The position numbers and the translations under genes are program-made. Below the pieces are notes generated by a model that was not told the origin of the DNA, ran no database searches, and worked only from the letters and a program-made list of their open reading frames with translations. From a virus, in IMG/VR virus record IMGVR_UViG_3300035698_005341, positions 1 to 23,218 of that record: a stretch of 23,218 nt of DNA. One strand, given 5' to 3'. Numbering within the stretch: position 1 is the first letter of the stretch; each line of letters starts with the position of its first letter. Below, in pieces: positions 20 through 23,218 of the stretch.

Positions 20-640
20 ATGAAATATTTGAGAACATTTGAAGAAAGTAGATTGACAAAATTTATTCACAAAGTAAAAAAAGCTAAGAAATATGCAACG
101 GATGCTCATGCTGGTGTATTTAGAAGAGGAAAAGATGAAGATGGTAATAAAATACCATATATTATTCATCCTGATACAGTTGCGAAAATAGTTCATGATG
201 TTAAGGATTCAGAATATATTGCTCATTTGATTGCAGCTGCATATTTACATGATGTTGTAGAAGATGTTGAAGGTATTAGTGTAGAAGATATTAGGAAAGA
301 ATTTGGTGATATAGTTGCTGGATTGGTGGGTGAATTAACAACAGATTTGGAAAAAATGAAAATATCTGGTAAAGAAGAATACTTAATAGATAAAATGTTA
401 AATATGTCTTCTTGGGCATTAGTTATAAAAATGGCTGATAGATTACATAATTTATCTGATTTCAAACAGATTATGGCGAGTGATGATAAAAAGAGACAAA
501 AGTGGGCGAAGGGTTATGCTAAACAAACAATGAATATTATAAATGAAGTAGAATGGTATAGAGATTTATCAGATACACAAACAAGATTGGTTAAAAAGAT
601 TAAAAAAAGACTGAATCATGTTTTAAAAAATGAAGATTAG
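20..640 (+). CDS. Small alarmone hydrolase-like HD-domain protein
   Basis: A 206-aa protein that aligns by eye with the hydrolase (HD) half of RelA/SpoT enzymes, and with stand-alone Mesh1-type hydrolases that remove the 3'-pyrophosphate of (p)ppGpp. Visible landmarks are R35-R36, PYIIHP with H50, LHDVVED (H77, D78, E81, D82) and KMADRLHN (D140, N144), which correspond to the Mn-binding and nucleotide-binding residues of that family. There is no synthetase domain, so degradation of the alarmone is the likely activity. Removing (p)ppGpp would keep a starving host productive during infection. The first residues MKYLRTFEES belong to the shared N-terminal leader seen on many proteins here and proposed to be a capsid-targeting signal. 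The next gene overlaps or nearly abuts the stop. Fold assignment is strong; the exact substrate is inferred and could be another nucleotide. Confidence 0.85.
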   Translation: MKYLRTFEESRLTKFIHKVKKAKKYATDAHAGVFRRGKDEDGNKIPYIIHPDTVAKIVHDVKDSEYIAHLIAAAYLHDVVEDVEGISVEDIRKEFGDIVAGLVGELTTDLEKMKISGKEEYLIDKMLNMSSWALVIKMADRLHNLSDFKQIMASDDKKRQKWAKGYAKQTMNIINEVEWYRDLSDTQTRLVKKIKKRLNHVLKNED

Positions 641-644
641 TAAA

Positions 645-1034
645 ATGAAAAGATTAAAGAAATTCGAAGAAATAAACTCACAAGATATGATGAGTATTCC
701 TACAAGTATTAATAAAGCTGAAAAGGTGAAAAAAGAAATTTCTGATCAAGTTAATAGATTTGAAAAGAATAAAAACAATAATACATCTGATTGTACTGAT
801 GCATTAAGTGAAATTGTTGATAGTACATTTGATAGTGGTGGAAATGGTCAAAATTTAGAAGATTATCTATCAGGTTTGGCAGATTTTTTAGATGGTAATC
901 ATGTTAATGCAAAAAGAGATCATGTTGCTATGGAAGGTGGTTGGTATTCTGATGAAACAGTTGAGAAATTTAAATCTTTACTTAAATCTATGGCAAATGA
1001 TGAGATTGCAGACAATAATATGTCCCAGTTATAA
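645..1034 (+). CDS. Unknown protein with capsid-targeting-like leader
   Basis: A 129-aa acidic protein I do not recognise. An in-frame ATG exists at 630, inside the end of the preceding gene, but the ATG at 645 is preferred because it gives MKRLKKFEE, matching the N-terminal leader shared by many proteins in this window. The body is hydrophilic and probably helical at residues 20-40, with a Gly/Asn/Asp-rich middle and a second helical part near the C-terminus. There is no signal peptide, membrane segment or cysteine pattern. It probably sits in one transcription unit with the upstream HD hydrolase, whose stop lies 5 nt before this ATG. Function unknown. Confidence 0.65.
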   Translation: MKRLKKFEEINSQDMMSIPTSINKAEKVKKEISDQVNRFEKNKNNNTSDCTDALSEIVDSTFDSGGNGQNLEDYLSGLADFLDGNHVNAKRDHVAMEGGWYSDETVEKFKSLLKSMANDEIADNNMSQL

Positions 1035-1080
1035 ACATTTTTTATATTCCTACCTATAATATAAAAAATAATCAAACAAT

Positions 1081-1254
1081 ATGAAAACAATGAAACTTGG
1101 AGACTCTATAAAGAGAGTTAGTGAAAAGGACGTAGATGCTAAATTAAGACAAGGGTGGAATTACTGTTCTAAATCAGAATGGAAAGAAAACGTAAGAGTT
1201 TTAGCACCAAAGAAAGAGAAGAAAGTAAAGAAAGAAAAAAAATCAAATAAATAA
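1081..1254 (+). CDS. Small lysine-rich phage protein
   Basis: A 57-aa basic protein. It contains KLGDSIKRVSEKDVDAKL followed by a GWNYCSKSEWK segment and a tail that is almost entirely Lys and Glu. From memory, short proteins of the pattern 'KRV-x-x-x-x-A-x-x-x-x-x-GW-x-YC-x-KS-x-WK' are common in T4-like phages of Bacteroidetes, but their role is unknown. The leader is A-rich, and TATAATATA at 1055-1063 may be a weak variant of the promoter motif. The stop at 1252-1254 is 2 nt before the next ATG, so translation of the pair is probably coupled. Confidence 0.65.
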   Translation: MKTMKLGDSIKRVSEKDVDAKLRQGWNYCSKSEWKENVRVLAPKKEKKVKKEKKSNK

Positions 1255-1256
1255 TT

Positions 1257-1442
1257 ATGAACGAGAAAAAATTTAAGGTGACCAAAGTTGGTCCTAGCGG
1301 AGAACACACTGAAGAGTTGACATATGCACAAGTTTGCGAGATGATGATGTCAGGTGGATTTATGACAATGATAAAGAGAATGTCAGTCGGAGAAGAATTA
1401 TATTATAATGAAAGAAATTTAAATTTTCAAAGAATTGAGTAG
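1257..1442 (+). CDS. Small hypothetical protein
   Basis: A 61-aa protein beginning 2 nt after the stop of the preceding small gene. It reads as a beta-rich N-terminus (KKFKVTKVGPSGEHTEELT) followed by a methionine-rich helix (residues 26-42) and ends FQRIE. There are no cysteine pairs, signal peptide or membrane helix. The tight spacing with the preceding gene supports it as real. Function unknown. Confidence 0.55.
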   Translation: MNEKKFKVTKVGPSGEHTEELTYAQVCEMMMSGGFMTMIKRMSVGEELYYNERNLNFQRIE

Positions 1443-1513
1443 TAAATAGTTATAAGTTTTATCCTAATTTAGAATGATTTTTGTTGTGAAAAGGCACTAT
1501 TTTTAGAAAAAAA

Positions 1514-1523
1514 TTTATATATA
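1514..1523 (+). promoter_or_regulatory. Late-promoter-like motif for thioredoxin gene
   Basis: TTTATATATA lies 20 nt before the ATG at 1544, at the spacing seen for most copies of this motif in the window. The 20-nt leader is A-rich and has no Shine-Dalgarno sequence. Confidence 0.6.
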
Positions 1524-1543
1524 AAAATAAAAACAAATCATAT

Positions 1544-1885
1544 ATGAAGAAAGTAACAACAAGTGAATTAATGAATAAAGGGTTTGTGGTAAATAATGGA
1601 AAATGGACATATAATGGAAAATTATGCGTGATAGACTTTTATACCGAGTGGTGTCAACCATGTAAGCCACAATTAATGATATTAACTGATTTGAGTAAAG
1701 ATTATGATGATGTGGAGTTTTTAAAAGTGAATGTTGAAGAAGAATATGAATTAGCAGAATTATTCAATATTAAAAATTTACCAACTGTTTATGTTTGTGG
1801 TAAAGACACAAAAGTATTTACAGGACTCACACAGAAAAGTAAAATACAGGAAGTATTAAAATCACAATCAACTATCAAAGTTTAA
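1544..1885 (+). CDS. Thioredoxin-like protein
   Basis: A 113-aa single-domain thioredoxin-fold protein. The sequence shows VIDFYTEWCQPCK with the redox pair C37 and C40, and the cis-proline loop NLPTVYV (P80). Length and order match ordinary thioredoxins, with Gln replacing the usual Gly in the CGPC motif. It should reduce or exchange disulfides in the host cytoplasm; phage thioredoxins and glutaredoxins often support ribonucleotide reductase, but none is visible here. It has its own late-type promoter motif and is followed by a strong hairpin terminator, so it is a single-gene unit. It lacks the MKYLK-type leader, which suggests it is not head cargo. Confidence 0.9.
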   Translation: MKKVTTSELMNKGFVVNNGKWTYNGKLCVIDFYTEWCQPCKPQLMILTDLSKDYDDVEFLKVNVEEEYELAELFNIKNLPTVYVCGKDTKVFTGLTQKSKIQEVLKSQSTIKV

Positions 1886-1909
1886 TTATAATCACTTAAA
1901 CAAAAATAT

Positions 1910-1941
1910 AAAACCAGTAATTAATATTATTGGTTTTTTTT
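1910..1941 (+). terminator. Rho-independent terminator after thioredoxin
   Basis: A 12-bp stem (arms 1910-1921 and 1926-1937, one G-T wobble) with a 4-nt loop, followed by a run of T ending at 1941. It ends the thioredoxin unit just ahead of the next promoter motif. Confidence 0.8.
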
Positions 1942-1942
1942 A

Positions 1943-1952
1943 TTAATATATA
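1943..1952 (+). promoter_or_regulatory. Late-promoter-like motif
   Basis: TTAATATATA lies 22 nt before the ATG at 1975 and directly follows the thioredoxin terminator, as expected for the start of a new transcription unit. Confidence 0.6.
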
Positions 1953-1974
1953 ATAGTAGAAAAAAATCTAAAAT

Positions 1975-2643
1975 ATGAAAAGATGGAAATTAGTTAGATC
2001 AATGTTAAAAAATTTGGGATATTCTCAAGTAGAATCTGATGATATAACTTTTGACTATATTGATAGGGATGGTAATATTTATTTTACTACTAAAGCCACA
2101 GGAGTAAAATATAAGGCAAAATATGATTCAGTGGAACCTACTCCAGTGGAACCTACAACTGATACAATTACAATGATATTCAATAATTTACCATCATTTT
2201 TATTAGAGCATGACATGGGTATACCACTTAATTTAAGTCAGTTGTTATCTAGTTGGAATACATTTTTTGATACAACTGCCTATGCTGATACATCATTTAC
2301 AAATGGTAGTATGGATACACCTAACAATACAATAATTCTGGAAGGTGCAACAAACCTCACTGTAAAGGCTAATTTGTTTAAGCCAGATTCTAGAGTTGGA
2401 ATTGCTGATAGATTAATATCATTCATAGATACAGTAATTGTCACATCAATAGAAGACAGCACATTTTCTAATTGTTTATTATTGACTTCAATAGATTTAC
2501 CTGCCGTAAACACTATGGGAACTGATGTATTTGATAATATTATAGGAAATATAATCACACTTACAATACCAGCAACGCTTAATGGTGATGCAAACGTTAT
2601 TTATTTAGAAGAAAATAACACAGTTACCATAATAAATCCATAA
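1975..2643 (+). CDS. BspA-type (LRR_5-like) repeat protein
   Basis: A 222-aa protein. Residues 1-50 form a small domain (MKRWKLVRSMLKNLGY, then beta-strands with DRDGNIYFTTKATGVKYKAKY). A short Pro/Thr/Glu linker with two VEPT copies follows near residue 55. The C-terminal half has the cadence of BspA-type leucine-rich repeats: ITSIEDSTFSNC, LTSIDLPAVNTMGTDVFDN, then TLTIPA. Such repeats form stacked beta solenoids used for binding, often in surface proteins of Bacteroidetes, and occur in phage structural proteins. There is no signal peptide. A virion decoration or adhesion role is possible but unproven. Confidence 0.6.
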   Translation: MKRWKLVRSMLKNLGYSQVESDDITFDYIDRDGNIYFTTKATGVKYKAKYDSVEPTPVEPTTDTITMIFNNLPSFLLEHDMGIPLNLSQLLSSWNTFFDTTAYADTSFTNGSMDTPNNTIILEGATNLTVKANLFKPDSRVGIADRLISFIDTVIVTSIEDSTFSNCLLLTSIDLPAVNTMGTDVFDNIIGNIITLTIPATLNGDANVIYLEENNTVTIINP

Positions 2644-2650
2644 TATTATT

Positions 2651-2660
2651 TTAATATATA
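2651..2660 (+). promoter_or_regulatory. Late-promoter-like motif
   Basis: TTAATATATA ends 21 nt before the ATG at 2682, the standard spacing in this window. Confidence 0.6.
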
Positions 2661-2681
2661 GAGTAATAAAAAATTTTAAAA

Positions 2682-3377
2682 ATGCAATACTTAAATAAAT
2701 TTAATAATTTCGATAAACTTAATGAAGAAGAAGCATTAGATATATCATATGATATGGGTAATATCTTTAATAATAAGACTCCAGAAGAAATTGAAGCAGA
2801 ATACGAAAAACGATTAGGTAGAGAAGGACATTTGAGTACATATTTTAGAAAAAATGGAAAAGTTTTTACATTTGGTGTTTTAAAAAGTATATTCCAAGAT
2901 GCGATAGATTATAAGAAGAAACGAGAATTTATAAAAGGTGGGTATAAAATGTTGCATAGAGCAATTCCAATGGCATTAGCTTTTGTATCTTTTCCTGTTT
3001 GGTTGGCTGGTAATGTTTTAGGTGCAAGTAGAGCCTTGAATAAGATATTGCAACCATTATTGAAAAATCCAGAGACAAATTATAATAAATTCTTAGTAAA
3101 AATGATACAGGGAACAATGGCAGTAATGGAGGGTGAGATAAAATATATTATGGGGGATGATTGGTTTTATTCTACTTTTATTATGGATGATAAATTGATA
3201 AAAATGGTGAGAAAAGATGTTCTAAGAGTTTTTGCAGTAGAATTAGCAAATATCATGGAACAAGAACCAGATGATAAAGAAGTGCCACACCATTATATAG
3301 AAAATGAACTCAAAAAATTCTTGAATGAGAAATTTGATATTTCTCCACCAATGGGACTGAAAAATTCTAAAAAATAA
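2682..3377 (+). CDS. Conserved unknown phage protein with one hydrophobic helix
   Basis: A 231-aa protein. The N-terminus MQYLNKFNNFDKLNE is a variant of the shared leader and ends in LNE, a possible prohead-protease site. A charged stretch (residues 76-86, YKKKREFIKGG) precedes a hydrophobic segment at about 94-116 (IPMALAFVSFPVWLAGNVLG) that could span or insert into a membrane; amphipathic helices follow. I recall similar proteins in Bacteroidetes T4-like phages without a known function. The stop is directly followed by the ATG of the next gene at 3378, so the two are co-translated. If packaged, the hydrophobic helix might act at the host membrane during DNA entry; this is speculation. Confidence 0.65.
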   Translation: MQYLNKFNNFDKLNEEEALDISYDMGNIFNNKTPEEIEAEYEKRLGREGHLSTYFRKNGKVFTFGVLKSIFQDAIDYKKKREFIKGGYKMLHRAIPMALAFVSFPVWLAGNVLGASRALNKILQPLLKNPETNYNKFLVKMIQGTMAVMEGEIKYIMGDDWFYSTFIMDDKLIKMVRKDVLRVFAVELANIMEQEPDDKEVPHHYIENELKKFLNEKFDISPPMGLKNSKK

Positions 3378-4084
3378 ATGAAATACTTATATAATTATAG
3401 TTTATTTGAATCTAGTCTCAGTGGCACAAAAACATTAACTGAAGATGAGTTTCAACATCTTTTAAAAACAAAATGTTCAGATTTTTCTTGGGATGATACA
3501 CCAATTTTCAGATCAGTAAAATTAAAAGAAGAACAATATTATGAAATGGATCCTAACATACCATTTGGTAAATACTATGATCACGATGGTAAAAAATTAA
3601 GAAGATCAGCATACACCAAAAATTATTATAATCTGTTATTGAATCATACACCAGCATTTAGTGATTTTCCAAAAAGGCAAGTAATTTGTTCAACTGTTCC
3701 TACATTTTTTGCTAGTAATATGTTTAGAGTTATTCCATTTAATAATGCAAAAATTGGAATCGTTCCAGATAGCGATATTCAAAATGGTTGGGATTGTGAT
3801 TTCACAAGGAAATATGGTTCTTTTAGTAGTTTTAATAGGGTGTTTCCAGAAGATGTTGAAGATTATAACTGGAAATTTTTTTAGATACTATTGATCCAGA
3901 ACTCAAAGAAAAAGTATTTGTTGATTTCACACCAGAAGCATTAAAATTAAAATGGGTATATTATAATGAATATAAAAAAGATTATATCAAGGTTATTGAT
4001 AGTCGAGGGGGAAAAGACATTTATAAACGACACGAATTGTGGTTAGACTCAAAATATTTATTGGTGTTTTCTCATTCACATTAA
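3378..4084 (+). pseudogene. Frameshifted phage protein, possibly ADP-ribosyltransferase-like
   Basis: The first frame gives 168 aa ending at the TAG at 3882-3884, immediately after a run of seven T. Shifting by -1 at that run continues without a stop for 67 codons (LDTIDPELKEKVFVDF and so on) to TAA at 4082-4084. The natural protein is therefore about 235 aa. The T run could be a programmed slip site, a real inactivating deletion or a sequencing error. The N-terminus MKYLYNYSLFE is the shared leader. IFRS (R45), SAYTKNYYNLL (77-87), FPKRQVICST (97-106) and MFRVIPFNNAKIGI resemble the strand order of R-S-E ADP-ribosyltransferases, and T4 Alt is such an enzyme packaged in the head. That link is tentative because the Glu motif cannot be placed confidently. 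Confidence 0.6.
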
Positions 4085-4161
4085 TTGTAAAAGATATTTA
4101 TCTTTCATAAACTATTATTTATTTTTTCTATATAATCTATATTAAAATATAAAAACCAAAA

Positions 4162-5194
4162 ATGATAATAAGTTATTTTGGTGGTAATTTAATCAAAAAA
4201 TAATCCTAACACTATCATAATTAGCTATTTCGGAGGAAAAAATAAGCAATCGGAGTGGATATACGCTCATGTCACAGAAGAAATGAAAAAAAACACAAAG
4301 ACCTTTACTGAGGTCTTTTCTGGTGCGTTTTGGGTATATGCCAACGAAGACTGGTCGTTTTGTGATAACATTATATACAATGATATGAACTCTTACATAA
4401 CCAACCTGTTTGCGTGTTGTAAAGAGCCTAAGTTTATAGAGTATTTACAAAAACAATATGAGCCAGGAAATCTGTTACATTATGAAAAAGATATAAGCAC
4501 AGACTTGAAAGAAGTGTATGATTACAACTATGCAAAGTTTAAGAAGATTTTCTTAAAGTATAGACAAGAATTATATCATGATACTGATGGACAAGAAATA
4601 AGTATAACACCTACTGACTTTGAAATGGCATTTAAGTATGGTTTTATGTTAAGACATGCATTTTCTGGAATACCTTCTAAAAAGATTGGATATTCTTATT
4701 CAGCATCTTCTTATAAACCTGGTATGAAAAAAGCACCAGAACCAAAATCACAAATCTTATTAAGAAATATTGTTAAAGATAAAGTACAGAATAAATTAGC
4801 AAAAGTGACTGCTTTTGAAAGTTTAGATTTTGAAGAACATATTAAGAAATATGATTCGCCTGAGACTGTGTTTTATATAGATCCACCTTATGCTTTTCAT
4901 GAAGATAATTATTTTCGTGGTGAAGAAAATTTTGGATATGCTGGTCATGCCAGATTGGCAAAAGTCTTATCTAAAATAAAAGGTAAGTTTTTATTATCTT
5001 ATTATGATTTTGATGATTTAAAAGATTTATATCCAAAAGATAAATATCATTGGAAATCTAAAAGTTTTAATAGACCAACAGCCTCTTGTCTCAAAGATGA
5101 TACTAAGGATAAAAAAGGTCATGAGGTTTTAATTCTAAATTATGATTCTGAAAAAAATGATGTTGTGGATAAGGTTGATGATTTTTGGAAATAG
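4162..5194 (+). CDS. dam: D12-class N6-adenine DNA methyltransferase, abnormal 5' end
   Basis: The uninterrupted ATG frame is 4283-5194 (303 aa). It contains motif I as EVFSGAF (residues 10-16) and catalytic motif IV as DPPY (200-203), so it is a Dam/MTase_D12-type enzyme that methylates adenine in DNA. The expected first motif, ISYFGGK, lies upstream in the same frame at 4217-4240, but no ATG precedes it after the stop at 4190-4192. An ATG at 4162 starts the peptide MIISYFGG in another frame and stops at 4201-4203. The two copies of IISYFGG are 52 nt apart and differ by synonymous changes. Joining them would restore a 326-aa enzyme. Possible explanations are ribosomal bypassing, initiation at a non-ATG codon, or a recombination scar with a shortened protein. 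The first ~250 nt also look less AT-rich than the rest. Confidence 0.85.
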
Positions 5195-5310
5195 ACTTTT
5201 TGTTTTGATCCTATTTTTTTCTTTTGTTTTTCAATTTTCTTTTCTTTTGAAGTTAATTTGTCTTCATTAAGAAATTCTCTATATATGTTTCTTTTTTCTA
5301 TTCTATCCAT
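5140..5310 (-). CDS. Possible small basic protein at operon end
   Basis: A 56-aa ORF starting MDRIEKRNIYREFLNEDK, followed by a Lys/Glu-rich helix and a Ser/Thr-rich tail. The ATG lies 4 nt after the stop of the upstream minus-strand gene, which supports it as the last member of that operon. Its 3' third overlaps the end of the convergent methyltransferase gene by 55 nt, so that part may be dictated by the other strand. REFLNE contains an (L)xE step like the proposed leader cleavage sites, though the rest of the leader pattern is missing. Function unknown. Confidence 0.4.
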   Translation of the reverse strand: MDRIEKRNIYREFLNEDKLTSKEKKIEKQKKKIGSKQKVYFQKSSTLSTTSFFSES

Positions 5311-5314
5311 TATT

Positions 5315-5731
5315 TTATTTATTTAATTCGTAAAATGCTCTAGACATGAACTTGTCTGCATCATATTCCAACCCTTCTAAATCTGTCCAAAGGTCGCTGT
5401 CATCATTTTCAAAATAACTACTTACATAATTATCACCATTAAACATAATTTCTCCTTCATATTCAATATCATTAACCGTTAATTTGCCACTCCAAGAATA
5501 TTGTTTATTTGGTGTTTCAGTATATAAAACGAGTTTTGCTTCATATGGTCCAATTTCATCTATATAGATTTTATGTTCCATTTCCTCTTGAATATTCTTT
5601 CTTTCTTTCTCATTATTGAAATTCTTTAGAAATTTCTTTTCTAAATCAGATAAACTATTCATACCATCACTAGATGCTTTATCTAATATATCATTAAGTG
5701 TTTGGTTTTCAAATGTTTTTAAATGTTTCAT
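5315..5731 (-). CDS. Unknown protein with capsid-targeting-like leader
   Basis: A 138-aa acidic protein. MKHLKTFEN is a clear copy of the shared N-terminal leader. Next comes LNDILDKASSDGMNSLSDLEKKFL, which resembles the short helical motif found at the C-terminus of some Bacteroidetes rhomboid-type proteins ('ILDKI-x-x-x-G-x-x-SL-x-x-EEK-x-FL'). The rest (residues 50-138) looks like a small beta domain (EAKLVLYTET, SGKLTVNDIEYEGEIMF) ending in a helix. The start overlaps the upstream stop as ATGA, which indicates translational coupling. Function unknown. Confidence 0.65.
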   Translation of the reverse strand: MKHLKTFENQTLNDILDKASSDGMNSLSDLEKKFLKNFNNEKERKNIQEEMEHKIYIDEIGPYEAKLVLYTETPNKQYSWSGKLTVNDIEYEGEIMFNGDNYVSSYFENDDSDLWTDLEGLEYDADKFMSRAFYELNK

Positions 5732-6678
5732 GTTATGATATCATATATTTTTCTTCTAGCTTTTCCAGGTTTGAAATCTTTTTTATGTAGAATGTGAGTT
5801 CTTTTGTCTGCTGTGAAATCATTTACTTTTACCCAACCTTTTCTTACATTATCTTCATCTATTTGTATATCAGTATATTGGTAACCTTTTATTTTACATT
5901 CGACTCTTTCGCCATCGTCTTTAACTATTTCATAATCAACGACATACAATATTGGATTTTTTTGTGTGTTGTATTTAATTGCTTGATATTCAAATGATTT
6001 CATGTTTGATTTGGTTTCTAATATAAACTCGTCAAAAGAAAGGTTTTCTCCTCTAAATTTTCCGAGAGCATCTCGCCATTCGATTGGCATATCTTTTGCT
6101 GATTTGGTTGATCCAAACCCACCAGTTTTTAATTTGCCTTGTTTTTTCAAATTTTCTTTTTGTTTCCAATTTAAATTATGCATAATAAATTCTTCTTCTG
6201 AAGGATTAAGGCTATTTACATAATCTTTTATATTGATTACTTCAGATTTTTTATCTGCATTGTCATCTGGGTTCCATCCGCCCACGACTATTTCTATTCT
6301 CCAAGTATCATCAATCTTGAAATATGACATAGTATTTATGTGATCAATTACTCTTTGTAATTCTTCTTTTGATTCTGGATATTCCCAGAATGATATAACT
6401 TTATCTTCCGACCATAATCTTCCAGCATAATCAAAATATTTATATGGTATTTGATCCCAAGAATCGCCAAATAAATCTAATGATATGAGTGGGTGTATAG
6501 AATATTCTCTACCAAGGACAAAATTATCTTTTACTTCGCCTCTGGTGAATTTTTTATCATTCATTTTAAATTTATCCTTTATGATGCCGAATGGTCTTGC
6601 ATTATATGTATTGTAAGTTAAAAATTTATTGTCTATTTCTAATCTGTCTGGGCTTTCATATTTTTTTAAGTATTTCAT
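5728..6678 (-). CDS. Unknown protein with capsid-targeting-like leader
   Basis: A 316-aa protein, leader MKYLKKYES. I recognise no family. The N-terminal half is rich in aromatic residues and predicted strands (residues 50-150, including WRIEIVVGGWNPDD). A Lys-rich central segment follows (KQKENLKKQGKLKTGGFG), then LSFDEFILETK near residues 213-223, which is an internal F-I-L-E step that would suit the prohead protease. The C-terminal ~90 residues are a beta-rich domain ending basic (KPGKARRKIYDIIT). It is tightly packed in the minus operon: 3 nt after the upstream stop and overlapping the next start by 4 nt. No catalytic motif or membrane helix is visible. Confidence 0.65.
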   Translation of the reverse strand: MKYLKKYESPDRLEIDNKFLTYNTYNARPFGIIKDKFKMNDKKFTRGEVKDNFVLGREYSIHPLISLDLFGDSWDQIPYKYFDYAGRLWSEDKVISFWEYPESKEELQRVIDHINTMSYFKIDDTWRIEIVVGGWNPDDNADKKSEVINIKDYVNSLNPSEEEFIMHNLNWKQKENLKKQGKLKTGGFGSTKSAKDMPIEWRDALGKFRGENLSFDEFILETKSNMKSFEYQAIKYNTQKNPILYVVDYEIVKDDGERVECKIKGYQYTDIQIDEDNVRKGWVKVNDFTADKRTHILHKKDFKPGKARRKIYDIIT

Positions 6679-6681
6679 ATT

Positions 6682-8535
6682 TTATTCATATAATTTATTC
6701 AGTATTTCTTCTGTTAGTGTATCACCATCAATTGTTCCATGAAATCCATTATAAGGTGGATCACAATCAATTAAATATTCATTATCATATGAATCAATAT
6801 ACCTAATATCGTTTATAGTGGCTAATACACTGTCCCTATCTATGTGATTTGCTATTGTTGAAAACCATTCTAAATCTAAATTAAAATGTAAGCCGTCTTC
6901 CCACCACATCATTTTGTCATTATTATTCTTCTTAATTAAGTTTCCTATTGTGTTTATTAATTTGTCTGTTACAAAATCCCATGCGGCTGAACTATCTGCA
7001 AGTTCTAATGCTGATGTGAAACCATTATCAAATGCTTCTCTTAATACATCTAAATCGCTTGAATAAAATTCGATTTCACCTTCTTTTGTATCTATTTCTA
7101 TATTTTTTTTATCGAGTAATGATTTTAATGAAATTACTCCACCAATAGGTGTTTTTATCCATATGTCATCTTTATTTGGACTTATTTCAGAATTTTTAGA
7201 TGAAATTGTAAATTCTTCACCATCATCATAACTTATAGAATATTTTTTTTCATCAAAAATTTCTAACAATTCTGTAAATATTCTTGATTCTAAATCATCC
7301 CAATGATATTGATAATCGAATTTTTGTGTGTCATAATAATTTATATCATAATCTCCATTTATAACTTCTTTTTGCCAATCGTCTCTATAATCATTATTCT
7401 TTGCGAATATGTCTTCTACATCAAAACTCATCCATTCATCTACGATAAAATGTATTTCATTATTTATAATTTTTAAATCAGAATATCCAGAAATTACTTC
7501 TTCTTTTGTTATATAATTTTCTTTATATAATTTATATTTTATTCCAAAGCCTTCGCTCTTAATGAGTATTTTGTTATTTTCGGCAATTATTTTAAGATCT
7601 TTTCCTGATAAGTCTGATAAATGGAAATCTTGATCTGGATCATATTCAATCGTAGAAAATTGTGTTATTGGTTGGAATTCGTTTATTATTCTAACATTTT
7701 CACTAACATTTGGGTAAGATAAAAGTTCAACAATATATGAGTGATATTTTTCTGTAGGTTTTTCATTATTTCTGCCTTTCATTTGGAAAATTTCACCCTC
7801 AGATGATTTGATAGCGGTGGTGACATGAGGAGATTGTTTTCTTCTCAATGAATATAAAGTGTCGCCATAAGTTGTTGTTCCACAATGTCCCATTGCATTT
7901 GCTTCGTCTTCATCAGAATTTGTTTCTAAATCAATCCAATAATGACCATCTTCAAATGTCATTAGAACAGTGCCTTTCTCGTTTATAACAACTCCTGTTG
8001 CTTTAATATTGTCATGCCATTCATTTGCTCTATCGCCTGCTTCTTTTAGTGTTTTGTATTGTTGTAAGTCAACAATTTCTTCTTCTCTAATAGGTGATTT
8101 TAACCAATCAACAATCACGGTGACCATTCCACTTGGTTTAAATTTTTCCCATTGATGGGTGAGTTCTTTTTTTATTTTACTTAATTTATTGACATCAGAT
8201 AGTACATCATTTAAAAACTTTTTAGATTTTTTATTATCAACAAACTTATTGTTTGCATCACTAAGTATGTTAAGATCCGCCATTTGTGTCATTGTTAAAT
8301 TTTTCATAAAACCTGATTCAACTAATACGTTAATAAAATCTTCTTTGAGTTTATCAGCAAACCAAATAGTATATTGTAAACCTTTTGTACCATCTTCACC
8401 AATAACTTTATCAAATACATAATTTATAATAGGTTCAAAAATCAAAAATTTCTTAATTTTTTCTCGTTGTTTTGCCAACTTTTTGTCTCGCTTTTTACTT
8501 TCAAGTAGTAGAGTATATGAAGTATATTTTAACAT
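6682..8535 (-). CDS. Large cargo-like protein with PcfJ-like central domain
   Basis: A 617-aa protein, the largest complete gene here. The leader MLKYTSYTLLLE is a divergent copy of the shared N-terminus and ends in LLLE. Residues 13-30 are strongly basic. Residues about 170-275 look like a PcfJ-type domain: W200-I-D, NAMGHCG (213-219), LYSLRRK, PHVTTA and FQMKGRNNEKP (250-260) followed by a helix. PcfJ proteins occur on plasmids and phages and have no proven activity. The remainder is acidic, with Tyr/Asp-rich segments (FDYQYHWDD) and a Trp-rich stretch MMWWEDG near residue 550. It directly abuts the next operon gene. The PcfJ assignment is by motif only. Confidence 0.6.
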   Translation of the reverse strand: MLKYTSYTLLLESKKRDKKLAKQREKIKKFLIFEPIINYVFDKVIGEDGTKGLQYTIWFADKLKEDFINVLVESGFMKNLTMTQMADLNILSDANNKFVDNKKSKKFLNDVLSDVNKLSKIKKELTHQWEKFKPSGMVTVIVDWLKSPIREEEIVDLQQYKTLKEAGDRANEWHDNIKATGVVINEKGTVLMTFEDGHYWIDLETNSDEDEANAMGHCGTTTYGDTLYSLRRKQSPHVTTAIKSSEGEIFQMKGRNNEKPTEKYHSYIVELLSYPNVSENVRIINEFQPITQFSTIEYDPDQDFHLSDLSGKDLKIIAENNKILIKSEGFGIKYKLYKENYITKEEVISGYSDLKIINNEIHFIVDEWMSFDVEDIFAKNNDYRDDWQKEVINGDYDINYYDTQKFDYQYHWDDLESRIFTELLEIFDEKKYSISYDDGEEFTISSKNSEISPNKDDIWIKTPIGGVISLKSLLDKKNIEIDTKEGEIEFYSSDLDVLREAFDNGFTSALELADSSAAWDFVTDKLINTIGNLIKKNNNDKMMWWEDGLHFNLDLEWFSTIANHIDRDSVLATINDIRYIDSYDNEYLIDCDPPYNGFHGTIDGDTLTEEILNKLYE

Positions 8536-9105
8536 TTAATCAGTTATTTTTATTATTGGGTAATATTCTCCCATAAAATCGCAGAAAATTTTATCAATTT
8601 TCCAATTTGGTTTTTCTTTTTTGAAATAAGCTAAATATAAATTTTCTCTTTGTTCTTTATCGTTTTCTTTTTCGCCTCTTTGTCCTCCAGCAAAAATATA
8701 TTTAACTTCTGGATTTTCTTGTAAATATTCCGTTATGACTTCTTTTAAAGTAGCCATTATTCTAAATACTTCGCCTCTATTTGTAATTATTGTATCATTA
8801 TAAGTTCCGAAAATATTATCACCTTCAAACGTAAAAAATGATATTCCTATTAATTTATTATAAAAATCTTCATCCTCAATAATTTCACATTCTTCAACAT
8901 GTTCTTCATGTAAATGGAATTCTCCCATATTTCTCATAATATTTATAGAATATTGTATGCCACTATCAGTATGAAAAATATAATTTTTTGTTTCTGTTTC
9001 AAATGGACCAGATAAATCAACAATATTCTCAATATTATAAGGTGGAACAGTTGATTTTCCAATTTCTAAAATAAGATAGTTCTCGTATGTGTTTAAATAT
9101 TTCAT
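8536..9105 (-). CDS. Conserved phage protein of unknown function, cargo-like leader
   Basis: A 189-aa protein starting MKYLNTYENYLILE, whose TYENYLILE is identical to that of the next upstream gene although the bodies differ. LILE fits the T4 prohead-protease consensus exactly. The rest contains NRGEVFRIMATLKEVITEYL (109-128) and KYIFAGGQRGEKEN with a later YLAYF. I recall this 'N-x-GE-V-[FY]-R-[VI]-MAT-[LV]' pattern from many phage proteins that lack an assigned function; the order of strands and helices could suit an acetyltransferase-like fold, but I would not claim it. It begins 6 nt after the preceding stop and ends exactly where the next gene begins. Confidence 0.65.
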   Translation of the reverse strand: MKYLNTYENYLILEIGKSTVPPYNIENIVDLSGPFETETKNYIFHTDSGIQYSINIMRNMGEFHLHEEHVEECEIIEDEDFYNKLIGISFFTFEGDNIFGTYNDTIITNRGEVFRIMATLKEVITEYLQENPEVKYIFAGGQRGEKENDKEQRENLYLAYFKKEKPNWKIDKIFCDFMGEYYPIIKITD

Positions 9106-9111
9106 AATTAT

Positions 9112-10413
9112 TTAATTTTTAATTATTTCCATTAATTCTTCAGTTGAATATTGTGATAAAATTTCTTCTTCTAAGTCACTAACAGAATAATTTGGTATTT
9201 TTGATAATATATCTGTTAAATTCATTATACCTCCGTCTCTGCGTCTTTCCCAATCTTGATGATTTCTGTCCATGCTGTCTTCGTAGCCATAATAATTGTA
9301 TAAAATGTCTATTGCAGTATAGCCTTCAAATCTGTAATTGATAGAACGTGTAGCCATTTTTTTATCTAAACGATTATCAGTAATAAATTCTGATGCAGAA
9401 CTAAAATCATATTCTTCCATAGTGTCTAATAGATTTTCTTCTGTTGTCCCATAAAAATTCAATACTGTTTCCAAACTTGTATATTTTATAAATAATTTTT
9501 TCAAAGTATCAAAATCATAATATTCAACTAATTCAATTGTGTTTTCTGTGTAATATTTTATTTCTTCTTTTTTGTAATCTTCGACAAAATCTGTTTCATC
9601 TAAAGCGTCAATAATATTTTGATCACTTGCGCCTATACCAATTTCACTTTGATTTTTCTTAATTCTTTTAATTAATTCTTCTCTAGATAAATTTGGGAAT
9701 TGAATTTCGTGTTCAATCGTATCATCGAAAATTTTATAAATATCTTCATTTTTGAAAAAATCCTTCATACCATATATAGACATATCGCTTTCTACTTCAT
9801 TGTCTTGATAATTCCAAACATCAATTCTTTCACTTGGTTTTAATTCAAAAGCAATGTCTTTTTTATAATCTATTTTATTTATACAATATAAAAGTGATCC
9901 AAATTCTCCAAAATGGTGTGAAAAATGTTCATCATCCCATGTAGTACACCAATTAGCATTATCATTTTGTCTATTATTATTTCTTTCGGTATTAAATGCA
10001 TATTTTGAATATTCAAATTTAAATGGTTGAAAAATACACCATTCAATAGAGTTATACCAAAGGATAACCTCATCTTCATGATAGTCTTCTAGATTATTAA
10101 GATTTCTTTTTTCATCAATTAAATTGCTTAATTCAATTAAAGTTTTCATTTTAGAAATAGGTTTAGATAAAAATTCACTATTCCTAATATATTTGTCTAA
10201 TAATAATCGAAGATGTTCTAAATTTTTTACTTCATCTTTATTGTTTTTATAAAATTTAAATAACCAATCAGAATATGCTTTATTCTTAGTTGTATCGAAA
10301 CTGTATAATTTTTCACCAAGTTCATCGCCAAATTCTTTTTTGAATTTAGTTTCTAAATCTTCTTTTCTGCCTTCGAGTATAAGATAGTTTTCATATGTCT
10401 TTAAATATATCAT
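9112..10413 (-). CDS. WCT-motif phage protein with cargo-like leader
   Basis: A 433-aa protein, leader MIYLKTYENYLILEGRKED, again with LILE. Residues 124-200 carry a pattern I associate with a widespread, uncharacterised phage family: EWCIFQPFKFEYSKY, NANWCTTWDDEHF (152-164), FGSLLYCINK, then KDIAFELKP and VWNYQDNEV. Compare 'W-x-V-x-x-P-x-T ... TKWCT ... Y-x-x-x-G-x-LYY-I-x-NK' in other phages. This shares general logic (W-C/H-C loop, strands, then a polar loop) with the PcfJ-like part of the 617-aa protein two genes downstream. The acidic C-terminal half shows no motif. The ATG overlaps the preceding stop by 1 nt (TAATG). Confidence 0.6.
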   Translation of the reverse strand: MIYLKTYENYLILEGRKEDLETKFKKEFGDELGEKLYSFDTTKNKAYSDWLFKFYKNNKDEVKNLEHLRLLLDKYIRNSEFLSKPISKMKTLIELSNLIDEKRNLNNLEDYHEDEVILWYNSIEWCIFQPFKFEYSKYAFNTERNNNRQNDNANWCTTWDDEHFSHHFGEFGSLLYCINKIDYKKDIAFELKPSERIDVWNYQDNEVESDMSIYGMKDFFKNEDIYKIFDDTIEHEIQFPNLSREELIKRIKKNQSEIGIGASDQNIIDALDETDFVEDYKKEEIKYYTENTIELVEYYDFDTLKKLFIKYTSLETVLNFYGTTEENLLDTMEEYDFSSASEFITDNRLDKKMATRSINYRFEGYTAIDILYNYYGYEDSMDRNHQDWERRRDGGIMNLTDILSKIPNYSVSDLEEEILSQYSTEELMEIIKN

Positions 10414-10724
10414 TATACTAGAATATAAGATTTTGTTTTGAATTCTCCAGCAACTGTCTCATTATCAGTCTCTTGTATGAAATTTTCATCGACTAATGTT
10501 TTGATTATGGTTTCATCAATTTTTGGATTTAAGAAAAATTCTTTTCTATCGAGTTCATCTGAATCAGGAACAATAATACTGAGTTCATCATAATCATCAT
10601 TATCTAATACAATCTTTATTTGTATAGGAATTATGTTTTCGTCATATTTCAATCTGAGTGCTAATTTTCTATCATCAATTGTTACAGAAAAAAGTCCAGA
10701 AAATTGATTAAATTTTGTTATCAT
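10413..10724 (-). CDS. Unknown protein, first gene of minus-strand operon
   Basis: A 103-aa acidic protein. The start MITKFNQFSGLF is only loosely like the shared leader. The body is predicted to be mostly beta (VTIDDRKLALRLKYDENIIPIQIKIVL) followed by a helix and a final strand. It is the first gene behind a late-type promoter motif at 10746-10755 and is joined to the next gene by a 1-nt stop/start overlap, so it leads an operon running to 5140. Function unknown. Confidence 0.6.
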   Translation of the reverse strand: MITKFNQFSGLFSVTIDDRKLALRLKYDENIIPIQIKIVLDNDDYDELSIIVPDSDELDRKEFFLNPKIDETIIKTLVDENFIQETDNETVAGEFKTKSYILV

Positions 10725-14534: not shown

Positions 14535-14558
14535 ATGGTAAAAAGTGGTATTGTTCGT

Positions 14559-14568
14559 TTAATATATA
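14559..14568 (+). promoter_or_regulatory. Late-promoter-like motif, 5 nt before endonuclease start
   Basis: TTAATATATA ends 5 nt before the ATG at 14574. This is the same short spacing as at 5-14 and, within 1 nt, at 21219-21228, giving a nearly leaderless message if used. Confidence 0.4.
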
Positions 14569-14573
14569 ATTAT

Positions 14574-16755: not shown

Positions 16756-18477
16756 ATGTCATCATATAATAGATTCAATAATAAACCAGATACATTAGGA
16801 AGTACAGTTGATAATAAAGGATATTTCAATAAAATGCTAAGAAATCTTAGTAATTGGGGTATGGATTATGAGAATATGGTAATTCAGAATACTTATTCAG
16901 TAGGTATGCATGAAGATCCACAAGGAGGTGCAGCAGATGGTGGATATGGTACAAATATGTATGATATTTTCTCAAAAAAGCTTATTTCGAAAGTTCTAGA
17001 TAGAAAATCAATTGCATATTTAGATAGAGCATATCAAGACAAAAGAAAAATACTTAGACAATATTCTATTAAGGATGAAATAAAAGATTTTCTTACACAA
17101 ATTGCAGATGAAAGTGTTATTTATGATGATGATAATTATTTTTGTAAATTAAAAGATTTGCCAGATGAGTTTGATAATTCTGTCAAACAAAGATATCAAG
17201 AAAATTTTAATAAGATTTATAGGAATTTTGGTTTTAATGATGGTATAACTGCTTGGAATTATTTTAAAAATTTCCTTATTGATGGTTATATTGCTTATGA
17301 GATAGTTTATGATAATAAACAAAAGAATATTATAGAATTGGTTCCAATTGATCCAATGACTTTAGTAGTTGCAACTGATCCAGGAACAGCTACAATGGTT
17401 TGGATTCAGTATCCAGATAATCCACAAATTAGAAGAGTCTTATTAGATGCACAAATTGTATATATTTCATATTCTAATAATACAGATTTTGCAGAAACTT
17501 CATATGTTGAAAATCTTATTAGACCTTATAATCAATTGAAAATGCTAGAACAGACAAGATTATTATATAATATTAATCAAGCTGCGATATATAAGAAATT
17601 TATTATTCCAACAAATGGATTGACAAGACAACAAGCAGAACAACAAATTTATGAATTGATGTCAGAATACCATGAAGATGTCCAATGGGATGATACAATG
17701 GGAACCGTGACAATTAACGGTTCAACAGATATTCCACACTCTAAAGATTTTTGGTTTCCAAACTCAGATTTAGGGCAACCAGATATTGAAATTATGCCAT
17801 CTCAAGGAACAGATTTAAATGAAGATACTATGTTACAATGGTTTTTCAAAATTCTTAAAAGAGCATCAAAATTACCATTTTCAAGATTTGATGAAGAATC
17901 AGGTGGTGGTAATGTTTATAATGATAGTGCAGAAATTACAAGAGATGAAATTAAATTTGGAAATTTTATTAAAAGATTGAGAACAATTTTTAAGGAACTG
18001 ATTATTAAGCCTATAAAAATACAAATGATTTTAGATTTTCCTGAATTAAGAGATGATAATCTATTTCATGCATCTTTACATCTTATTTTTAATTCTAATG
18101 AATTATTCGAAGAATGGAAATATCTTAATAACTTATCAAAGAGAGCAGAAATTGCTTCAACTTTAAGTACTAATTTAATGGGAGCAGATGAAAAACCTTA
18201 TTTGCATATTGAGTGGATTATAAGAAATATTATGAAATTTACAGATGCAGATATTGCTGAAAATAACAAATACAAACTTGGAGGTGGTGGTATGACACCA
18301 GGACAAGGTGGAGGTGCAGGCGGTCCAGGTGGCGGAGCACAAGGTGGTGAAGGTGATTTCGGTGAAGAAGGTGGAGCACAAGGTGGTGATGAAGGTGATT
18401 TCGGTGAAGAAGGTGGAGCACAAGGTGGTGACGAAGGCGGAGGTGACGAAGGTGGAGCGCAAAACTTTGAATTTTAA
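16756..18477 (+). CDS. 20: Portal vertex protein (T4 gp20-like)
   Basis: A 573-aa protein that forms the dodecameric portal through which DNA enters and leaves the head. Diagnostic parts are IRPYNQLKMLEQTRLLYNINQAAIYKKFII (compare T4 '[30 protein letters not shown]'), and LPFSRFDEESGGGNVYNDSAEITRDEIKFGNFIKRLR (compare T4 'S-x-x-KPEGGFN-x-GRSSEISRDELKF-x-KFI-x-RLR'). The last ~65 residues are a Gly/Glu/Ala tail with imperfect copies of GDFGEEGGAQGGDE that T4 gp20 lacks; they are probably disordered. It has its own promoter motif and ends at a bidirectional terminator. In T4 the prohead core and protease genes follow; here a minus-strand island intervenes. Confidence 0.95.
   Translation: MSSYNRFNNKPDTLGSTVDNKGYFNKMLRNLSNWGMDYENMVIQNTYSVGMHEDPQGGAADGGYGTNMYDIFSKKLISKVLDRKSIAYLDRAYQDKRKILRQYSIKDEIKDFLTQIADESVIYDDDNYFCKLKDLPDEFDNSVKQRYQENFNKIYRNFGFNDGITAWNYFKNFLIDGYIAYEIVYDNKQKNIIELVPIDPMTLVVATDPGTATMVWIQYPDNPQIRRVLLDAQIVYISYSNNTDFAETSYVENLIRPYNQLKMLEQTRLLYNINQAAIYKKFIIPTNGLTRQQAEQQIYELMSEYHEDVQWDDTMGTVTINGSTDIPHSKDFWFPNSDLGQPDIEIMPSQGTDLNEDTMLQWFFKILKRASKLPFSRFDEESGGGNVYNDSAEITRDEIKFGNFIKRLRTIFKELIIKPIKIQMILDFPELRDDNLFHASLHLIFNSNELFEEWKYLNNLSKRAEIASTLSTNLMGADEKPYLHIEWIIRNIMKFTDADIAENNKYKLGGGGMTPGQGGGAGGPGGGAQGGEGDFGEEGGAQGGDEGDFGEEGGAQGGDEGGGDEGGAQNFEF
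18308..18468 (+). repeat. Gly/Glu-rich tandem repeat at portal C-terminus
   Basis: Imperfect repeats of about 39-42 nt encoding GGEGDFGEEGGAQ and GGDEGDFGEEGGAQ. Long open frames on the opposite strand here are by-products of the repeat. Confidence 0.8.
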
Positions 18478-21332: not shown

Positions 21333-23218
21333 ATGGTAAATCCAAACAAACATGTTTTGATTGTAGAGAATAACACCAATGGTTTGACACTAAATGAGAG
21401 TGTAAAAGTTGAGAAGGACAAGAATGGTAATAGAATTTATCGTCTTTCAGGTATTTTTACAGAATTTGATGTGACAAATCGTAATGATCGTGTTTATACA
21501 TCAGACAAATTTTTACCGCATCTTAACGAACTCGTAGAACGAAAGAATACGTTGGGTGCAGTTTATGGTGAGTTTGATCATCCAGACGTTTTCGATACTT
21601 CTTTACAAAGAATATCGCACACAATAGAAAAAGTATATTTTAATCAAAATGAAAACCGTGTAGACGGAGAGATTAGATTATTGAATACTCGTTGGGGCAA
21701 AGAAGCTAAAGCATTAGTGGAAGACAATTGTCCTATTTTTGTGTCTTCGAGAGCCGCTGGAATTACAGAATCAGACGGAACTGTTACAGTTAAAAAATTA
21801 TTCACTTACGATTGTGTAGCTGACCCAGGATTTGGTTCTGCTCGTATGGAAGTAATGAATGAATCCTTAGGATTCAACACACAAAACACTAACTTTAGGA
21901 TATTTGATGTATCTGATGAGTCAAAAATTAATGAATTATTCAAAATGAACCAAAATGATTTCGTTACAAAAACGCAAATGGTTGAGTATTCAGAGTATTT
22001 AAAAGAAGAGGTAGAAAATGTAAAATCTGTTCTTGATAAATCTATTAAAGATGGTAATGTACCTTCTGAAGATATTATGAAAATGTCTGAAAACTATGAA
22101 AACCTAATGGAAACACAAAACAAAGTTTCTAAGTATCTTGACTACCTAGCTGAAACAATTCAGGTCGTAGTAAATGAAAACAAATCATTACAAGAAACTA
22201 CTACTAAACTATCTAGTCATAATGATTACTTGGCTGAGAATTTAGAAAAATCTATCAAGTACAGCGAGTATTTAGCTGAAAAACTTGACAAAAACATTAA
22301 CTATTCAGAATACATTGCTGAAACTTTAGATAAAAATATTGATTTCTCTGAGTATATTGCTGAACACGTTAATAAAAACATTCAATTTTCTGATTATTTA
22401 GCAGAAAATATTGAAAAATCTATTGATTATGGTGAGTATATCGCTGAAAATCTTGATAAAAATATCGCTTACTCTGAGTACATAGCTGAAAACTTAGACA
22501 AGAATATCGCTTATTCAGAATATATCGCAGAAAATGTAGATTCTTCAATCGCTTATTCTGAGTATCTTGCTGAGAATATAGATAATAATATTGCTTATTC
22601 TGAGTATATCGCTGAGAATGTAGATAACAATATTGCTTATGCAGAATATATTGCAGAACACGTAGACAATAACATTGCTTACTCTGAGTATATCGCTGAA
22701 AATGTATCTGACGGACAAGCTTATATGAATTATATTGCTGAAGGTCTAGATAATACTATGGAAGTTCTTAAAGAAAATAAACTTTTCGAACAAGGACAAC
22801 AAATGCAAGTTCCAACAATGAGACAAGTTGATGATGTTGAAAAATATTATGACGAAGACGATGATTTCGTTCAAAGACCTCAAGGACAAGCACAAACTAT
22901 CCAAACACAAGTACAAGAGCCTGTTCAAGGTGCTCAAGAAGGACAACCTGTTCAAGGTGAAGTAGTTCAAGAGCCTGTTCAAGGTGAAGTTCCTGTTCAA
23001 GGACAACCTATTGAAGGACAACCTATTGAAGGACAACCTATTGAAGGACAACCAGTTCAAGGTGAAGTTCCAGTTCAAGGTATTGAAGGTGGAATGGTAC
23101 AAGAACCAATTGACGCAGAAGGAAATCCTTTTGATGCTCAAACAATTGAAGGACAACCAGTTCAAGGAATGCCTGATTCAGTAGAAGGACAACCTATGGG
23201 AGCACAAGTTCAATTCGT
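21333..23218 (+). CDS. 21: Prohead protease (T4 gp21-like) fused to repeat/scaffold-like region, 3' end outside window
   Basis: The frame is open for 628 codons and runs off the window. Residues 30-180 are the serine protease that matures T4-like proheads: GIFTEFDVTNRNDRVYT, then GEFDHP with catalytic His83, IFVSSRAAG with Ser138/139, and FTYDCVADPGF with Asp161/164. T4 gp21 is about 212 aa, so over 400 extra residues follow. Residues 200-298 are helical. Residues 299-470 contain thirteen 14-residue repeats of the type YSEYIAENLDKNIA. Residues 480-628 are a Gln/Gly/Glu/Pro-rich low-complexity region with GQPIEGQP copies. T4 encodes the main scaffold as the separate gp22, so this looks like a protease-scaffold fusion. 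Each repeat carries (I/L)-A-E, matching the T4 gp21 cleavage consensus. Confidence 0.9.
   Translation, partial: MVNPNKHVLIVENNTNGLTLNESVKVEKDKNGNRIYRLSGIFTEFDVTNRNDRVYTSDKFLPHLNELVERKNTLGAVYGEFDHPDVFDTSLQRISHTIEKVYFNQNENRVDGEIRLLNTRWGKEAKALVEDNCPIFVSSRAAGITESDGTVTVKKLFTYDCVADPGFGSARMEVMNESLGFNTQNTNFRIFDVSDESKINELFKMNQNDFVTKTQMVEYSEYLKEEVENVKSVLDKSIKDGNVPSEDIMKMSENYENLMETQNKVSKYLDYLAETIQVVVNENKSLQETTTKLSSHNDYLAENLEKSIKYSEYLAEKLDKNINYSEYIAETLDKNIDFSEYIAEHVNKNIQFSDYLAENIEKSIDYGEYIAENLDKNIAYSEYIAENLDKNIAYSEYIAENVDSSIAYSEYLAENIDNNIAYSEYIAENVDNNIAYAEYIAEHVDNNIAYSEYIAENVSDGQAYMNYIAEGLDNTMEVLKENKLFEQGQQMQVPTMRQVDDVEKYYDEDDDFVQRPQGQAQTIQTQVQEPVQGAQEGQPVQGEVVQEPVQGEVPVQGQPIEGQPIEGQPIEGQPVQGEVPVQGIEGGMVQEPIDAEGNPFDAQTIEGQPVQGMPDSVEGQPMGAQVQF
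22227..22745 (+). repeat. Thirteen 42-nt coding repeats in protease fusion
   Basis: Y-(I/L)-A-E starts at residues 299, 313, 327 and every 14 residues up to 467, without any slip in phase. Two related outliers occur upstream at residues 222 (YLKE) and 271 (YLAE). A 14-residue period equals two heptads and suits a continuous helix or coiled coil. The DNA copies have diverged at synonymous sites, so selection acts on the protein. Confidence 0.9.
22884..23200 (+). repeat. Gln/Gly/Glu-rich low-complexity coding repeats
   Basis: Short units encoding EPVQGEVPVQ and GQPIE alternate through this stretch; at 23001-23057 the 15-nt unit GGACAACCTATTGAA is repeated almost exactly. The region is probably disordered. 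Open frames on the other strand are artefacts of the repeat. Confidence 0.85.

Follow-up and report, generated by a model that had tools for sequence, protein, structure and literature searches.

A T4-like capsid-targeting leader, greatly expanded, is proposed for many unrelated proteins of uncultured megaphages

Introduction

The virus record IMGVR_UViG_3300035698_005341 of IMG/VR, an AT-rich stretch of 23,218 bases that is a fragment of a megaphage (hereafter the window), raises the question of why otherwise unrelated proteins encoded there begin with similar short leaders. An earlier note, made from the sequence alone, listed nine such open reading frames (ORFs), likened their N-termini to the capsid-targeting sequence (CTS) of phage T4 internal head proteins, and proposed a modular packaging tag on effectors delivered with the DNA. 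Here we report that megaphages of this lineage carry the leader on about 8-15% of their genes, mostly encoding fast-evolving proteins of unknown function together with some enzymes, and we argue that it is very probably a capsid-targeting propeptide of the T4 type, greatly expanded.

Most megaphage genes are of unknown function, and a literature search of incomplete coverage returned no report of capsid-targeting leaders in megaphages. Such leaders on variable bodies are already known from T-even phages (PMC3012670), in which at least 10 internal proteins have been reported (PMC12373910). Residues 4 and 7 of the T4 CTS target the protein and residues 8 and 10 govern its processing (PMC9026906).

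Sequences and Leader Profile

The named records nearest to the portal protein of the window are the uncultured megaphages LR756501 (735 kb, 65%), LR745206 (635 kb, 53%) and LR756500 (462 kb, 38%), hereafter W01, W02 and W03, followed by Lak phages, Sphingomonas phage PAU and Tenacibaculum phages. Related portals, at most 87% identical to that of the window, occur at 57 IMG/VR loci. W01, W02, W03, PAU, pT24, PTm1 and two IMG/VR genomes, G001 (344 kb) and G002 (159 kb), were read mostly or fully, and Lak-B5 (W04) in part. Gene models came from a simple caller based on codon statistics, and T4 leaders were taken from NC_000866.

The leader profile (type 1) spans residues 2-8 (K2, H/Y3, L/I4, K/R5, T/K6, F/Y7, E/N8). 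It was trained on W02 and G001 only, with the window excluded, and is circular for those two genomes; G002 and W03 are held out, and the IMG/VR portal loci derive partly from G001 and G002. Chance expectation within genomes is the profile rate at internal methionines. Bodies were clustered after removal of the first 18 residues. An arrow (↓) denotes a putative cleavage position.

Results

Eight proteins of the window share a leader

All nine ORFs listed in the earlier note exist, and eight of their N-termini (starts at 20, 645, 2682, 3378, 5731, 6678, 9105 and 10413) lie above the profile threshold, with scores of 6.0 to 21.2 bits (Table 1). The leader is thus found on 8 of 27 window genes, compared to 0.09 expected from the internal-methionine rate or 0.5 from the N-termini of other phages (binomial tail ≤3e-8). 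The ninth, MLKYTSYTLLLE at 8535, falls below the threshold (-9.6) and keeps only a looser core, Y4-x-x-Y7...LLE12↓S, i.e., [FY]xx[FY]...LxE. The portal, protease, thioredoxin, methyltransferase and other window ORFs gave negative scores and no morphogenesis ORF passed, in agreement with the earlier remark that the recognizable morphogenesis proteins and the thioredoxin lack the leader.

Five of the nine genes stand in a contiguous minus-strand run of six (5315-10724). The sixth gene of the run (10413-10724) failed the type-1 profile; its N-terminus, MITKFNQFSGLF (MITKFNQF), is tentatively likened to the M[IV][KT]x[FY]xx[FY] leaders of W01 and G001.

The leader is widespread in related megaphages

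The earlier note proposed that relatives be searched with a leader profile, and this search found the leader on 132 of 892 proteins in W02 (1.8 expected) and 56 of 477 in G001 (0.6 expected), the training genomes. It was also present on 19 of 214 proteins in G002 (0.6 expected) and 53 of 630 in W03 (2.6 expected), both held out, and on 68 of 723 around related IMG/VR portals (0.8 expected), where some loci are those of G001 and G002. W01 has a diverged form, M[IV]KxYxxFINE↓A/G/S, on about 76 proteins, and 57 of its N-termini contain [YF]xx[YF][ILV]xE, compared to 2.3 expected. Further leader starts include MKYLKTFNES... and MKYIKEYEEFILEA..., and a search of IMG/VR with an exact degenerate DNA pattern of the MKYLKxFNE leader type gave 29 stretches, on contigs up to 476 kb long. 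Leader genes are adjacent to one another beyond chance in all four genomes tested; in W02, 42 adjacent pairs were counted where 17 were expected, and the maximum in 2000 permutations was 31.

The leader is joined to unrelated bodies

Body clustering yielded 118 clusters from 122 proteins in W02, 47 from 50 in G001, 61 from 76 in W01, 37 from 43 in W03, and 8 from 8 in the window. When leader proteins are aligned, the consensus is limited to the leader (MKYLKxFxxF in W02, xxxxYxxFxNE in W01, and MKYLKxYExF in a mixed set), and body families such as HD and NUDIX begin within about 10-20 residues of the N-terminus. Homologous bodies bear each genome's own leader, or none. For example, MKYLYNYSLFE↓S opens ORF 3378, compared to VITKYKSYNLINE↓V in its W01 homolog; bodies homologous to that of ORF 2682 start MDYMKSYKDKLNE in W01 and MNTIKKYDEFLIQE in W02; and three genomes share a hydrolase-like body preceded by MKVIKFSDYLKE↓S (W01), MKYIRTYESY (W02) or MIKKFSNLIE↓S (G001). 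The window HD protein starts MKYLRTFEE, and its W02 relative 40135 (48% identical) has no leader.

The tag therefore behaves as modular, as the earlier note had supposed, and the possibility that it had named against itself, a leader that belongs to a single homologous domain, was rejected. Inheritance within one paralogous family would suit the families that have expanded with the leader, such as the leucine-rich-repeat proteins of W03 and a cluster of 11 in W01, but the cluster counts in W02, G001 and the window, and the homologous bodies that bear a different leader or lack one, refute it as a general explanation unless most bodies are united by a deep structural homology, and we give it almost no credence.

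An effect of translation starts or of composition in AT-rich genes, which could make first codons alike, has in its favor the frequency of MK starts in these genomes. However, in other phages only 4 of 1276 N-termini score above 6 with the profile, the motif extends to residues 9-15, and synonymous codons inside leaders match the rest of the genome and are not fixed. Since codon choice in the leaders follows the genome, selection acts on the peptide. A DNA-level or translation-start signal and a composition effect were both rejected on these grounds, and as a main cause such an effect is refuted, with a negligible chance of being correct.

The leader matches the T4 capsid-targeting sequence

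The likeness to the T4 leader asserted in the earlier note holds at the level of single residues. T4 ipII and ipIII start MKTYQEFIAE↓A, and W03 leaders of the form MKYIK-E-YEEFILE↓A match their core without gaps: the targeting residues Y4 and F7 of T4 and its cleavage residues I8 and E10 equal Y7, F10, I11 and E13 of MKYIKEYEEFILE↓A. T4 ipI, which starts MKTFKEFTSTTTPVSTITE↓A, is a long-spacer form (MKTFKEF...ITE↓A) that resembles those window leaders in which a spacer stands ahead of LNE or ILE. As with T4 IPI, IPII and IPIII, a short N-terminal propeptide of the MKxYxxFIxE↓A type precedes unrelated bodies in phages with a cognate gp21-type protease. The window itself encodes such a protease (phrog_207) together with a T4-type portal (phrog_213), and the protease is also found in six relatives and in PAU, pT24 and PTm1.

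Differences from known systems are also clear. T4 has three CTS internal proteins, compared to about 50-130 leader proteins per megaphage genome, and the leader here is lineage-specific (MKYLKxFNE, MKYIKEYEEFILE, MIKxYxxFINE), unlike that of T4. T4 internal proteins are small, basic and DNA-associated, whereas leader-bearing bodies are acidic in W02 and slightly basic in W03. In phiKZ and SPN3US, inner head (ejection) protein propeptides are cut by a prohead protease after x-x-E and have been suggested to act in targeting (PMC5694885), but they are few and mostly longer than 100 residues, compared to 9-15 residues on many proteins here.

The two elements of the motif occupy sharp registers that differ between genomes. 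The [FY]xx[FY] pattern peaks at position 5 in W01 (9.6-fold) and at position 7 in W02 (8.3-fold) and W03 (7.0-fold), and hydrophobic-x-E↓[ASGN] peaks at 9 and 11 in W02, 13 in W03, and 9 in G001 and PAU. In the FNE↓S register, only one of the two T4-type aromatics is in place. The earlier note described several leaders as ending in LxE, and an (L/I)xE end occurs in part of the window set: LNE at 2682, LFE at 3378, LLE at 8535, and ILE at 9105 and 10413. The leaders at 20 and 645 end in FEE, that at 5731 is ambiguous, and D-R-L-E at 6678 is not a clean site because the third residue before the cut (P3) is R.

The same site type appears in the major capsid protein

N-terminal sequencing of the PAU major capsid protein (MCP) showed that 585 residues are shortened to 520 (PMC5646251). 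A cut at LME64↓N65 would leave 521 residues, within one residue of the sequenced form, and relatives have MNE↓N, INE↓N, LYE↓N, LNE↓N, INE↓S and ILE↓S in the same alignment column. The site type in the MCP cleavage column is also that at the end of many leaders. In W02 93266 (MRYLKPYKKFIE↓NADGSSTSGMGAVSSAQPGGLAGTT) and W01 730457 (MKRVITFTEYLNE↓SDGG...GMGNIVAP), the leader is joined to the mature MCP N-arm (...GMGAVVAAQPASLAGTT...GSGD) and replaces the MCP propeptide; pT24 71192 is probably joined likewise.

We also noted a set of small proteins, possibly capsid-lining, that repeat the mature MCP N-arm (GMGxV...GSGD) after the leader or another cut-like site. These are W02 93266-93520 (L138:13266-13517) and 554784, W01 730457-730711 (L107:10457-10708), pT24 71192-71377, and W03 265261.

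PAU, which has a T4-type portal, protease and MCP as here, carries a leader of different sequence from that of the megaphages. Eighteen PAU proteins have an MKxLxxLYE-like start, 12 of them within 14 kb around the portal, protease and MCP. Among the bearers are gp142 and gp154, annotated as "internal capsid protein" (a depositor's note whose basis is not stated there), and gp152, annotated as "scaffolding"; the gp142/gp154 leader is MK[TS][LI]xxLYE, in some cases with a second LNE↓A site.

Together, the T4 match, the MCP cleavage column, the chimeras of leader and MCP N-arm, and the PAU internal capsid proteins provide new evidence for a link between the leader and the prohead protease. They also bear on the possibility that the leader directs proteins elsewhere in the infected cell, for instance to a membrane or a replication compartment. 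A short amphipathic N-terminal peptide could do so, and leaders without a site would then need no cleavage. Against this stand the four functional residues shared with the T4 CTS, the registers of hydrophobic-x-E before a small residue, and the presence of the leader on the MCP N-arm and on the PAU internal capsid and scaffold proteins, and we regard another destination as quite improbable.

The protease ORF contains repeats of the leader core

In the window, the protease ORF holds 15 matches to Y-S-E-Y-[IL]-A-E, 13 of them at regular 14-amino-acid (aa) spacing, and the motif has the same pattern as the leader core. Relatives also show such repeats, and the protease-scaffold fusion holds 8-15 copies of Y-x-x-Y-[IL]-A-E, mostly in tandem 14-aa units. 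The first role of the repeats may be that of a coiled coil, because those of W03 often lack the E. We tentatively raise the idea that the leader mimics one scaffold unit, so that cargo would pack homotypically into the prohead core and come free when the protease cuts both, though we hold this to be somewhat less than an even chance. Short second protease-like matches adjoin the full protease gene in W01 (11437-11814) and W03 (154846-155133).

Most bodies match no named family

Pfam names 8 families among 121 W02 leader proteins, compared to 50 among length-matched other W02 proteins, and PHROGs gives 8 compared to 87 in length-matched controls. The bodies that can be named include NUDIX, class III nucleotide cyclase, leucine-rich repeats, RNase H, lysozyme and an RSH-type HD protein. 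The last is ORF 20-640 of the window, which matches structures of (p)ppGpp hydrolase/RelA-SpoT from residue 15 onward; its RSH-type metal-site residues H50, H77, D78, E81, D82, D140 and N144 are invariant in an alignment of five relatives. It is a possible injected alarmone hydrolase. In W02 528558-529244 (L160:8558-9241), a class III nucleotide cyclase domain follows the leader MQHLDKYKYFQINE↓A, and this cyclase is possibly carried in the head. W03 has six leader-bearing leucine-rich-repeat proteins of one family (e.g., L166:13446-14279).

The nature of the bodies also bears on whether the tagged proteins could be parts of the prohead core that are degraded and expelled at maturation, with few or none reaching the host. 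The annotated scaffold gp152 of PAU bears the leader and the W02 bodies are acidic, both of which would fit. However, many different bodies with fast turnover, and enzymes such as the HD hydrolase, NUDIX and cyclase, fit cargo better than scaffold, and we consider a degraded core unlikely.

Other features of the window and its relatives

An IMG/VR search with four leader-protein bodies of the window, among them that of ORF 9112-10413, found no relatives, although its portal has 57 related loci. The body of ORF 6682-8535 has a weak PcfJ match, the DUF6576 match in ORF 5315-5731 (E 1e-5) lies just under the family cutoff, and ORF 645 has an alternative in-frame ATG at 630. Endonuclease-like ORFs lie amid the window head genes at 11964-12605, 14535-15476 and 19460-21214; similar-looking ORFs occur near the head genes of G001, G002, W02 and W03 at other sites, as expected of mobile elements. 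In Lak-B5, coding coverage rises from 0.68 to 0.88 when TAG is read as Q, and the N-termini MNKxIKxLxESLFDD and LYESIMKSxSK...LNE recur on many proteins, perhaps as a leader type of its own.

Table 1. Positions of leaders and head genes in the window
Feature	Positions	Strand	Basis
Leader MKYLRTFEE↓S, 206-aa RSH-type HD protein (ORF 20-640)	20..46	+	profile 18.8
Leader MKRLKKFEE, ORF 645-1034	645..671	+	profile 10.4
Leader MQYLNKFNNFDKLNE, ORF 2682-3377	2682..2726	+	profile 11.1
Leader MKYLYNYSLFE↓S, ORF 3378-3884	3378..3410	+	profile 6.0
Leader MKHLKTFEN, ORF 5315-5731, then DUF6576-like segment	5705..5731	-	profile 21.2
Leader MKYLKKYESPDRLE, ORF 5728-6678	6637..6678	-	profile 19.2; G001/G002 homologs with their own leaders
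Divergent leader MLKYTSYTLLLE↓S, ORF 6682-8535	8500..8535	-	profile -9.6; YxxY...LLE↓S core
Leader MKYLNTYENYLILE, ORF 8536-9105	9064..9105	-	profile 16.9
Leader MIYLKTYENYLILE↓G, ORF 9112-10413	10372..10413	-	profile 16.2
Possible second-type leader MITKFNQFSGLF (MITKFNQF), ORF 10413-10724	10689..10724	-	tentative; type-1 profile failed
Portal protein, gp20 type, without leader	16756..18477	+	phrog_213 E 1e-63
Head maturation protease, gp21 type, fused to probable scaffold domain	21333..23216, runs past window end	+	phrog_207 E 3e-29
Tandem 42-bp (14-aa) repeats Y-S-E-Y-[IL]-A-E in protease ORF	22290..22706	+	TRF

Discussion

We propose that proteins with the leader, once synthesized, dock on the prohead core by means of the aromatic [FY]xx[FY] segment and become enclosed as the shell forms. 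The gp21-type protease, encoded beside the portal, would then cut after the leader glutamate ([L/I/F/Y]xE↓[S/A/N/G]). The released bodies would stay alongside the DNA inside the head and probably accompany it into the host. In this way, any protein could be recruited by gaining a leader of roughly 9-15 residues. Core binding and ejection are proposed because of the analogy with T4; leader proteins would be present in the virion and may be delivered as effectors.

Several observations weigh against this proposal. About half of the type-1 leaders, by our own classification, have no clear hydrophobic-x-E site, and the commonest register (FNE/FEE) has an aromatic residue at P3 in place of L/I. The leader-bearing bodies of W02 are more acidic than its other proteins (net -0.044 compared to -0.025 per residue). 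Gene starts depend on the caller used, and some profile matches are signal peptides, e.g., W02 MKYLITLLLSITYLFS... and G001 32119. The coarse N-terminal hydrophobic-x-E count is also raised 1.6-fold in unrelated phages.

Because about half of the type-1 leaders lack a clear site, FNE↓S and FEE↓S must also be substrates of the protease, or else part of the leaders act in targeting and stay uncut. In T4, a change at position 10 stops processing and not targeting (PMC9026906). Because of the raised count in unrelated phages, the coarse enrichment was dropped as proof for Lak, pT24 and PTm1, whose weaker signals are insecure. The W02 signal-peptide match, a false positive of the profile, is an 845-aa SusC-like TonB-plug/carboxypeptidase-regulatory phage protein (L137:17457-19991).

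The novelty of this work lies in the scale, the leader forms specific to each lineage, the chimeras of leader and MCP arm, and the scaffold-like repeats. If the leader is indeed a packaging tag, 50-130 genes per genome could be sorted from sequence alone as encoding head-carried proteins, which would provide a list of candidate injected host-takeover and anti-defense proteins. It would suggest that new cargo could be acquired by adding about 10 codons, and would offer tags to try for loading proteins into very large capsids. On the tentative scaffold-mimicry idea, a megaphage with more than 100 tagged proteins would bring a sizeable proteome into the host at infection.

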